From: Salinispira pacifica
GTDB taxonomy: Bacteria > Spirochaetota > Spirochaetia > DSM-27196 > Salinispiraceae
Assembly: GCF_000507245.1 (NCBI RefSeq)
Contig: NC_023035.1
Location: forward strand, 509,001 to 573,000
Length of the DNA stretch: 64,000 nt
Direction of reading: 5' to 3'
Every line of letters starts with the position of its first letter. Position 1 is the first letter of the stretch. Below, one piece after another: positions 46,860 through 50,264 of the stretch. The notes beneath the pieces were generated by a model, which had not been told where the DNA came from, searched no databases, and saw nothing but the letters and a program-made list of their open reading frames with translations. Both the position numbers and the translations under genes were made by a program.

Positions 46860-48476
46860 TCAGTTTCCGGCCATGATGCTTTGTACATCTTCTTCCACCT
46901 CTCCGGTGGGTTTGATATTGAAGTTTTCCACCAGCACCTTGGCCACATTGGGTGAGAGGAAGGCGGGCAGGGTGGGCCCCAGTCGTATCCCTTTTACACC
47001 CAGGGACAGCAGGGCAAGGAGAACCGCCACCGCCTTCTGCTCATACCATGCAATATCGTATGAAATAGGCAGTTCGTTAATATCATCCAGACCGAATACC
47101 TCTTTCAGCTTCAATGCGATCAGCGCCAGGGAGTAGGAGTCATTGCACTGTCCCGCATCAAGGACCCGTGGAATGCCTGCGATATCCCCAAGATCCATTT
47201 TGTTGTATCGGTATTTGGCACAGCCGGCGGTGAGAATCACCGTGCTGTCCGGTAGAGTTTCGGCAACATCGCTGAAGTAGGACCTGCCTTTCTGACGTCC
47301 GTCGCAGCCGGCCATCACCACGAAGCGGGAAATGTCGCCGTTCTTTACCGCATCCACCACCTTGTCCGCAAGGGAGAGCACCTGGGCGTGGGCAAAACCT
47401 CCGGTAATCTCTCCATTCTCAATCTCTTGAGGCGCCTTGCATTCCAGGGCCCGAGTGATCAGGGGGGTGAAATCCTTCTTTCCGTCCACCTCTTCAATGT
47501 GGGGGATATCCGGATACCCCACCACGCCTGTGGTGAAAATTCTGTCCTTGTAGGCATCCCGTACGGGAACAATACAGTTGGTGGTCATGAGAATGGCTCC
47601 GTTGAAGGAATCAAACTCCTTGTCCTGTTTCCACCAGGCATTGCCGTAATTCCCGACGAAGTGATCATATTTCTTGAACCTGGGATAGTAGTGGGCGGGA
47701 AGCATTTCCGAATGGGTGTAAATGTCCACACCCGAGTCTTTGGTCTGCTCAAGCAGCTCTTCAAAATCCTTCAGATCGTGGCCCGATACCAGGATGCCCG
47801 GCCGGTTTCCAACACCGATATTCACTTTGGTGATTTCTGGATTTCCGTAGTGTTCGGTATTCGCGCCGTCCAGCAGGGCCATGGTTTTGACTGCTGTTTC
47901 GCCGGTCTTCAGGGTGAGGGCGATAAGCTTCTGCATATCCTGTTCGCTGAGCAGGCTGTCCAGGGTTGAGAGGAGGAAGGCCCAGATCTCATCGTTTTCA
48001 TGGTTGAGAACCGCAGCATGGGTTGCGTATGCACAGATGCCCTTCAGTCCGTAGGTGATCAGTTCTTTCAGGCTTCGGATGTCTTCGTCGGGTTCGGACA
48101 TGATACCGACTGCCCGGGCGTAGTTTTCCCATTCCGCTTCCCGGGCATTCCAGTTGGCAGCGCTGTGTTCTGCAGACGCTCCCCTGGCCTTCAGTTCCTC
48201 ACGTATGCTCAGGGCTTCCCTGATCATTTCCCGTATGCGGTCATTGTGGAAGTTGGCATTGGTAATGGTTGCAAAGAGAGCCCGGGCGCAGAATCTGGCC
48301 ACAGGACGGCTGTGATCATCGATTTCCTGACTGAGACTGCGGCTGAGGGCGCTCACACCCTTCAGGGTGAAAATCAGCAGATCCTGAAGCCCGGCGGTCT
48401 CGGGGGCTTTTCCGCATACTCCCCGGATGGTACATCCTTCGCCTTTGGCGGCTTCCTGACATTGGTAGCAAAACAT
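46860..48476 (-). CDS. hcp: Hybrid-cluster protein (hydroxylamine reductase)
   Basis: A protein of 538 residues with a [4Fe-4S] cluster and the hybrid Fe-S-O cluster; it reduces hydroxylamine and acts as an NO reductase in nitrosative stress. The N-terminal cysteines C3, C6, C15 and C21 fit the CX2CX8CX5C pattern of strictly anaerobic (class I-type) Hcp. Hybrid-cluster ligands are visible in [27 protein letters not shown] and [13 protein letters not shown] 48476 follows AAGGAG; an in-frame ATG upstream lies inside the regulator-binding palindrome and is unlikely. Confidence 0.96.
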
Positions 48477-48534: not shown

Positions 48535-48577
48535 AATCTACCCCCGGGTTCCGTGGGGTGCGGTAACATATGTTACC
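48535..48577 (-). promoter_or_regulatory. hcp promoter with Crp/Fnr-type palindrome
   Basis: GGTAACATATGTTACC at 48562-48577 is perfectly symmetric (18 bp with flanking C and G). On the minus strand a -10-like TAGATT (plus 48535-48540) is centred exactly 32 bp from the palindrome centre. This places the site at -41.5, the class II activator position, with a predicted start near 48528. Confidence 0.75.
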
Positions 48578-48596
48578 GGAAGGAGAAAAAAGCGGA

Positions 48597-49301
48597 TTAA
48601 TCGTTTTGACAGCTTTCGATAAGCGCGCTGCGGTTCTGAATTCTGTAAGAGCGCCCGCTGCGGGATATCAGCTCCTGATCAACCAGGTTGCCCATCACCC
48701 GGCTCAGGGAAGGACGGCTAACGCCGAAAAGCTCTGCCAGGGTTTCCATGGAGTAGGGTAGGTTCAGAAGTTTTCCCGGGCTGCGCTGGTCCAGCTCCAG
48801 GAGGTAGGTGCACAACTTCTCCCGGATGGTGTGGAATTTCATGAAGCGCAGTTTATCCGCCAGAAAGTGGATGCGGTTCCCTGCATCCTGAAGAAGTGTG
48901 CGAAGGAGCTTGGGATCTTCTCCGGCCATTTTGAGAAGCACGTCCCGGTGAATACTGATGGTGTGTGCGTCCACCACTGCGGTAAGGGAGACCGGTAGAT
49001 GGTTATCGTCTCCAAACAAAATGCCGGCGGCCACCGGACTGGGTGCATGGAGACTTTCAACCTTGAGAGTGTGCCCCTGGGCATCGCTGATTTCCGCGCT
49101 CAGTTCACCCTGAACAAGAATCATGAGGCTCGAATATTCATCCCCCCGCTGTGCAATCAGGTTCCCGCTTTCATGCCGCCGGGACGAGAAAGGATAACGG
49201 CGGAAAAGACGAGTCAGTTCATGGAGATGTAAATGGGAGAACAGTCCGCAGTCCTGAAGCTTTTCTGCAATTTCATCAGAAATAGTATCCGTTGGTAACA
49301 T
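48597..49301 (-). CDS. Crp/Fnr-family regulator, HcpR-like
   Basis: A protein of 234 residues with an N-terminal cyclic-nucleotide-binding-type beta barrel (about 20-125) and a C-terminal winged HTH with METLAELFGVSRPSLSRVMG. There is no Fnr-type N-terminal cysteine cluster, although C18 and a C-terminal cysteine exist. Flanking hcp and a ferredoxin gene, it fits the HcpR group that answers to nitric oxide, possibly with haem; ligand and name are inferred. Its ATG lies within the palindrome at 49294-49309, suggesting autoregulation and little or no leader. Confidence 0.88.
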   Translation of the reverse strand: MLPTDTISDEIAEKLQDCGLFSHLHLHELTRLFRRYPFSSRRHESGNLIAQRGDEYSSLMILVQGELSAEISDAQGHTLKVESLHAPSPVAAGILFGDDNHLPVSLTAVVDAHTISIHRDVLLKMAGEDPKLLRTLLQDAGNRIHFLADKLRFMKFHTIREKLCTYLLELDQRSPGKLLNLPYSMETLAELFGVSRPSLSRVMGNLVDQELISRSGRSYRIQNRSALIESCQND

Positions 49302-49336
49302 ATGCTACCGATCATATCATGGGCTGAGGGTAGAAT
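49294..49336 (+). promoter_or_regulatory. Ferredoxin-gene promoter with Crp/Fnr-type palindrome
   Basis: GGTAACATATGCTACC at 49294-49309 differs from the hcp site by one base. A -10-like TAGAAT (49331-49336) is centred 32 bp from its centre, the same geometry as at hcp, predicting a start near 49343. The site also covers the start codon of the divergent regulator gene, where binding could repress. Confidence 0.72.
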
Positions 49337-49361: not shown

Positions 49362-50264
49362 ATGATACGTGATATTATCGAAATAGATGAAGATCTGTGC
49401 AACGGCTGCGGGGAATGCGTACCCGGCTGCCATGAGGGTGCGCTGCAGATTGTCGACGGAAAAGCACGGCTGATCAGCGAGCTGATGTGCGACGGTCTTG
49501 GAGCCTGCGTGGGACACTGCCCCACCGGAGCCATGACCGTGGTGAAAAAGGATGCTCCGGCCTACGATGAGGTGAGAGTAATGAAGGAAAATATTATTCC
49601 GGCGGGAATGAACACCATCCGTGCTCACCTCAGCCACCTCAGAGATCACGGGGAGCTGGACTTTCTGGCCCAGGCCATGGGAGTGCTGGCGGAAGCAGGC
49701 ATCAATCTGGAAATTGAGCAGGAAATGGGGCCGAAAATGGGCGCAGTGGGAAAATCCGGAGTTGAGGTACAGCATGACATGACCCCCGCCGGCGGAGGCT
49801 GTCCGGGATCGGCGGCCCGGACCCTCAGACAAAATGCGGCCACGTTTCAGAGTACTCCTGACAGCGGCAATGTTCCGGCTTCTTCCCAGCTTGCCCAGTG
49901 GCCGGTACAGCTGCATCTGCTGAACCCCTCCGCACCGTATCTGCGGAATGCCGACCTTCTGCTGGCGGCGGACTGCAGTGCATATGCGGTGGGAGATTTT
50001 CATCAGCGCTTTCTGAAAGGCAAGGCCCTGGCCATCGCCTGTCCCAAACTGGATCAGGGAATGGAATCATATCTTGAGAAACTGACCGCCATGATCGATT
50101 CAGCCGGAATCAATACCATCACTGTGCTGATGATGGAAGTTCCCTGCTGCGGAGGGCTGCTTCAAATTGCACAGGCCGCAGTATCCCGGGCCCGGCGGAA
50201 GGTTCCGGTAAAGAAAATGGTGGTTTCCATAGAGGGCGAACTGCTCGGCCAGGAATGGGTTTAA
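49362..50264 (+). CDS. Ferredoxin-domain protein associated with Hcp
   Basis: A protein of 300 residues. Residues 1-70 hold a two-cluster ferredoxin fold. The first motif CNGCGECVPGC is complete; the second, CDGLGACVGHC, has Leu where the second cysteine should be. The rest (about 100-295) has AADCSAYAVGDFH and IACPKLDQGMESY, plus EVPCCGG with a cysteine pair, as in the larger ferredoxin-like proteins commonly found beside hcp. It probably passes electrons to Hcp. The ATG at 49362 follows GGAGGTG; an ATG-less longer frame is unlikely. Its stop overlaps the convergent permease stop (TTAA). Confidence 0.88.
   Translation: MIRDIIEIDEDLCNGCGECVPGCHEGALQIVDGKARLISELMCDGLGACVGHCPTGAMTVVKKDAPAYDEVRVMKENIIPAGMNTIRAHLSHLRDHGELDFLAQAMGVLAEAGINLEIEQEMGPKMGAVGKSGVEVQHDMTPAGGGCPGSAARTLRQNAATFQSTPDSGNVPASSQLAQWPVQLHLLNPSAPYLRNADLLLAADCSAYAVGDFHQRFLKGKALAIACPKLDQGMESYLEKLTAMIDSAGINTITVLMMEVPCCGGLLQIAQAAVSRARRKVPVKKMVVSIEGELLGQEWV

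Follow-up and report, generated by a model that had tools for sequence, protein, structure and literature searches.

HcpR2-type operators at a fixed distance from -10-like hexamers before hcp and frdX in Salinispira pacifica and related genomes

In Salinispira pacifica, two near-identical palindromes flank the gene of an HcpR2-type Crp/Fnr regulator, each centered at the same distance from a -10-like hexamer facing hcp or the ferredoxin gene frdX, and this layout recurs in related genomes. We consider it very likely that an HcpR2 dimer activates hcp, frdX, and a hemerythrin gene elsewhere in the genome from position -41.5 under nitrosative stress and also limits its own synthesis. The window is the whole stretch of DNA that was analyzed (64,000 nucleotides; positions 509,001 to 573,000 of NC_023035.1), and all coordinates below are its own unless a genome position is given. 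Its relevant features are the following:

46860..48476, minus strand: hcp, hybrid cluster protein (hydroxylamine reductase family), 538 aa; NCBIfam PRK05290.1 E=1.5e-246 and TIGR01703 E=5.5e-225, Pfam Prismane E=1.6e-171
48535..48540, minus strand: -10-like hexamer TAGATT facing hcp; 32.0 bp from the palindrome, centre to centre
48562..48577, no strand: HcpR2-type operator GGTAACATATGTTACC, a perfect palindrome before hcp that fits the consensus GTAACnnnnGTTAC quoted from PMC1274295
48597..49301, minus strand: hcpR, HcpR2-type Crp/Fnr-family regulator, 234 aa, recognition helix VSRPSLSRV; assigned from Pfam, solved relatives and R196/P197
49294..49309, no strand: HcpR2-type operator GGTAACATATGCTACC between hcpR and frdX; the hcpR start codon (49299-49301, minus strand) lies inside it
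49311..49316, minus strand: candidate -10 for hcpR, TATGAT preceded by TGA (extended -10)
49331..49336, plus strand: -10-like hexamer TAGAAT facing frdX; 32.0 bp from the palindrome, centre to centre
49362..50264, plus strand: frdX, two-[4Fe-4S]-type ferredoxin protein, 300 aa; Pfam Fer4 domains

The initial annotation had described two matching palindromes, and both were found where it placed them, 16 bp long and one base apart. With up to three mismatches allowed, the window has no further matches, and shuffled sequence gave a mean of 0.31 matches, with the observed four strand-matches reached in 1 of 100 shuffles. Across the whole 3.78-Mb genome, only one further match to the 16-mer was detected at up to one mismatch (G000:C1:653941-653956). 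The shorter consensus GTAACnnnnGTTAC with a free spacer has four perfect sites in the genome, which is about the chance level, and one of them lies inside an RHS-like coding sequence, so it was rejected as too weak for a stand-alone search. These four sites are what would speak for the palindromes and hexamers being accidental or non-functional, but the full 16-mer together with its spacing is far above chance and precedes the same genes throughout the class, a conservation that contradicts this idea and leaves it scarcely credible. The flanks of the operators, in the window and in relatives, are not alike: the promoter-proximal side nearly always continues with G, often GA (GTTACCGA), and the distal side does not, making the element asymmetric beyond its palindrome.

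The distance from each palindrome to the hexamer in the direction of its gene, given as 32 bp in the initial annotation, was measured as 32.0 bp for both TAGATT and TAGAAT. The frequency of TAnnnT hexamers in the window is about 0.0075 per position, which makes a coincidence of two at one pre-set offset unlikely. In the class II promoters of E. coli CRP and FNR, the activator site lies at -41.5. If the two hexamers are indeed -10 elements, the 32.0-bp spacing would place both operators at that same position.

The spacing was also found well beyond this locus. Among 23 regulator loci carrying the site, a set of relatives that includes the window's own locus, a TAnnnT in the divergent direction stands at exactly 32 bp in 14 and at 33 bp in four, every other offset is used three times at most, and the regulator's direction has no peak. 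A search of 248 genomes of the class for the operator combined with TAnnnT returned 35 composites at the 32-bp spacing (in 32 genomes) versus two at 37 bp. As these two sets overlap and some members are close kin, the counts are not fully independent. Over the composite, one class member, G118, is identical to Spirochaetales bacterium MAG2, indicating that the window most likely belongs to the class Spirochaetia. Of 11 hcp loci in named genomes with an upstream motif, 9 have TAnnnT at exactly 32 bp, from an Aminicenantes, several Clostridia, the deltaproteobacterium ML8_F1, and a Spirochaetales MAG. Judged by these comparisons, the 32-bp layout of operator and -10 is real and general, extending across several phyla. 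Loss of the palindrome from orthologous loci, which the initial annotation had named as one outcome that would speak against its reading, did not occur; the palindrome recurs in relatives, and both the class II geometry and the HcpR-type regulon proposed there hold up in related genomes.

A dimer at this position could in principle switch its targets off instead of on. The same regulator on the same operators might repress hcp and frdX until NO or nitrite releases them, and an HcpR2 from Desulfovibrio, which shares the name but is a different protein, has been modelled as an hcp repressor (PMC5701242); the operator lying over the regulator's ATG likewise looks repressive for hcpR. We regard repression of hcp and frdX as unlikely, as the 32-bp spacing kept in dozens of promoters covers the -35 region and not the -10 or +1, which is the place of a class II activator. 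Moreover, the -35 regions of the hcp and frdX promoters (CCGCAC and CCGATC) are unlike TTGACA, as expected for activator-dependent promoters. HcpR activates hcp in Porphyromonas gingivalis (PMC12750200), and disruption of hcpR in Clostridioides difficile lowers hcp and frdX (PMC12915319). With activation as the preferred reading, both palindromes would serve as operators of the adjacent HcpR2-type regulator, and the active regulator would sit as a dimer on each site at -41.5, acting as a class II activator leftwards for hcp and rightwards for frdX.

The identity of the regulator and the motif it is expected to bind agree with each other. The hcpR product has the Crp/Fnr architecture, with Pfam HTH_Crp_2 (E=3e-16) and cNMP_binding domains, its best solved-structure relatives are 1o5l (E=1e-23) and P. 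gingivalis HcpR 9day (E=2e-15), and its gene is co-localized with hcp, with about 20 bp between its end and the operator that precedes hcp. The consensus had seemed to match no described HcpR motif when it was first noted, but it corresponds to GTAACnnnnGTTAC, described for HcpR2 in 2005 (Rodionov 2005, PMC1274295). In that article, the motif is reported from Clostridium, Bacteroides, Thermotogales, and Treponema denticola and is tied to a change of residue 181 in the recognition helix from Glu to Pro, giving an Arg180/Pro181 pair. This signature is present in the window regulator as R196 and P197 in SRPSLSR, and when the protein is aligned with 23 relatives, the Arg is shared by all and the Pro by nearly all. 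A comparison of motif and residue was made on hcp loci that were fetched by the Hcp protein and without reference to the motif: a perfect site was found at seven of the eight loci with an R-P regulator nearby and at none of the 17 where residue 181 is E or S. Taken together, the published motif, the R-P signature, and this comparison of loci indicate that the initial annotation was wrong on this point. The regulator itself had been rejected as a query for relatives, since scanning with the single protein gave no confirmed ones and the alignment was too diverse for scanning, and hcp was used in its place.

The genome encodes two other proteins above the HTH_Crp_2 cut-off, and either might in theory be the one that binds the palindromes. 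However, their recognition helices (TQETLSR and SIEKTSD) lack the R-P pair that accompanies GTAACnnnnGTTAC, and the sites flank hcpR itself as well as its orthologues, making such an assignment highly improbable.

The signal perceived by HcpR2 is presumably NO or nitrite stress, and we are less sure of this than of the promoter layout. The only cysteines of the regulator are Cys18, Cys164, and Cys231, with no N-terminal cluster, and an FNR-type cysteine motif is absent from the protein. Met68, the heme ligand of P. gingivalis HcpR, corresponds to Ile71 in the window regulator, and the relatives carry I, V, L, F, or M there. As no column of their sensor domain holds His, Cys, or Met in at least 50% of relatives either, NO sensing by heme is uncertain for the window regulator.

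The genes behind the operators form a consistent set. The hcp gene is full-length and single-copy in the genome, and frdX, divergent from hcpR, has orthologues of 48-58% identity that stand behind HcpR2 sites in relatives. The third, near-perfect genome site (G000:C1:653941-653956) precedes a DUF2249/hemerythrin-like/PAS/DUF1858 gene, with a TAGTAT at exactly 32 bp, centre to centre; this gene too would be activated by the regulator. Its Hemerythrin and DUF2249 matches fall just below the Pfam cut-offs; one relative encodes a clearer DUF438-hemerythrin-PAS protein, divergent from hcpR. When 30 composite loci were examined, an hcp, frdX, hemerythrin/PAS, ferredoxin, or flavodiiron gene was found behind 27: hcp directly behind the -10 in 15 and as the second gene in one, frdX in seven, a DUF438/hemerythrin/PAS gene in one, a small ferredoxin with hcpR divergent in two, and a flavodiiron-type protein in one. 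The remainder comprised one composite beside hcp on its other side and two without a recognized gene.

Several of these loci carry further features. The flavodiiron-type protein (ODP and flavodoxin domains; L155, genome G068) behind its operator/-10 composite suggests that the regulon of that genome includes an NO reductase. At six loci (L029, L031, L032, L140, L143 with frdX, and L144 with the DUF438-hemerythrin gene), a distance of 41-42 bp between operator centre and start codon puts the latter at the predicted +1, and HcpR-dependent mRNAs there would be leaderless. By contrast, the window's frdX has a predicted leader of about 19 nt with GGAGG. A perfect GTAACAGATGTTAC at G000:C1:3639413-3639426 (L047:2914-2927) lies 32 bp from a TATCTT, and 6 nt beyond that hexamer comes the ATG that begins a methyltransferase gene; the outer G/C bases are missing from this site, which could be a chance match.

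The operator between hcpR and frdX also takes in the beginning of the regulator gene. As had been noted initially, the site covers the regulator's ATG, where the coding strand reads CAT followed directly by ATGTTACC. An in-frame TAG lies two codons upstream, also inside the palindrome, and there is no other ATG, GTG, or TTG before the conserved region of hcpR, leaving 49299-49301 as the sole usable start. The same ATGTTAC start inside the operator was found in seven relatives (L019, L020, L021, L024, L027, L030, and L035), whose proteins begin with Met-Leu. As the operator holds the start codon, a dimer bound there should hold back hcpR transcription, so that the dimer on the frdX side would also limit hcpR and provide negative autoregulation; we find hcpR autorepression plausible on this arrangement. 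A broader idea is that the HcpR2 operator GTAACATATGTTAC doubles as a translation start: an in-frame stop (TAA/TAG), the ATG, and the opening Met-Leu codons would all come from it. A single DNA element would then fix outward activation from -41.5, self-limitation, and the protein's N-terminus, and selection would have held this fusion across an order of spirochaetes; we offer it tentatively, at somewhat less than an even chance.

The promoter of hcpR itself appears less uniform. In the window, the extended -10-like TGATATGAT adjoins the operator and would put the +1 inside it, and no conservation of an extended -10 of this type was found in relatives. A single fixed -10 for the regulator was considered and rejected: besides the operator's own TAACAT/TATCAT, the sole repeated offset is 33 (eight loci), and the hexamer there, in the regulator's direction, is in most cases the target's -10 read on the other strand. 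The hcp -10 at L020, L024, L027, and L030 is TATTCTA. Its complement includes TAGAAT, which might act as the -10 of the divergent regulator, and a bidirectional promoter shared by hcp and the regulator is possible at these loci.

What this analysis adds is the fixed -41.5 layout across phyla, the wider regulon in Salinispira pacifica, and the conserved start codon embedded in an operator. The HcpR literature we found gives motifs but not general promoter geometry, and the way in which HcpR2 probably works, by class II activation from -41.5, could be fixed in several phyla from sequence alone. The operator with a -10 at 32 bp also allows stricter genome-wide target calling, with few false hits returned besides hcp, frdX, hemerythrin/PAS, and flavodiiron genes, and through it a hemerythrin/PAS gene of unassigned role is putatively linked to the nitrosative-stress response of Salinispira pacifica.

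These promoters share the site-to-(-10) spacing of class II promoters served by CRP and FNR in E. coli; the half-site differs, and the geometry here is known from sequence. The HcpR1-type HcpR of Desulfovibrio and other deltaproteobacteria (PMC545781) likewise has hcp and frdX as targets, which in the window are predicted, but it uses the motifs TGTGA-n6-TCACA or TTGAC-n4-GTCAA and different recognition-helix residues. The P. gingivalis HcpR (PDB 9day, 6np6; PMC12750200) is a homologous Crp-fold regulator that controls hcp under NO, and it differs in its heme ligand Met68 (Ile71 here) and, according to PMC1274295, in having Gln at 181 and another motif. By its motif GTAACnnnnGTTAC, Pro181, a regulator beside hcp, and hcp as core target, the system belongs to the known HcpR2 regulon, of which T. 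denticola is a member (PMC1274295). The passages of that article that we consulted give neither a spacing to the -10 nor a start codon inside the operator, and its T. denticola list consists of hcp only, whereas in Salinispira pacifica frdX and the hemerythrin/PAS gene are predicted to belong to it as well.
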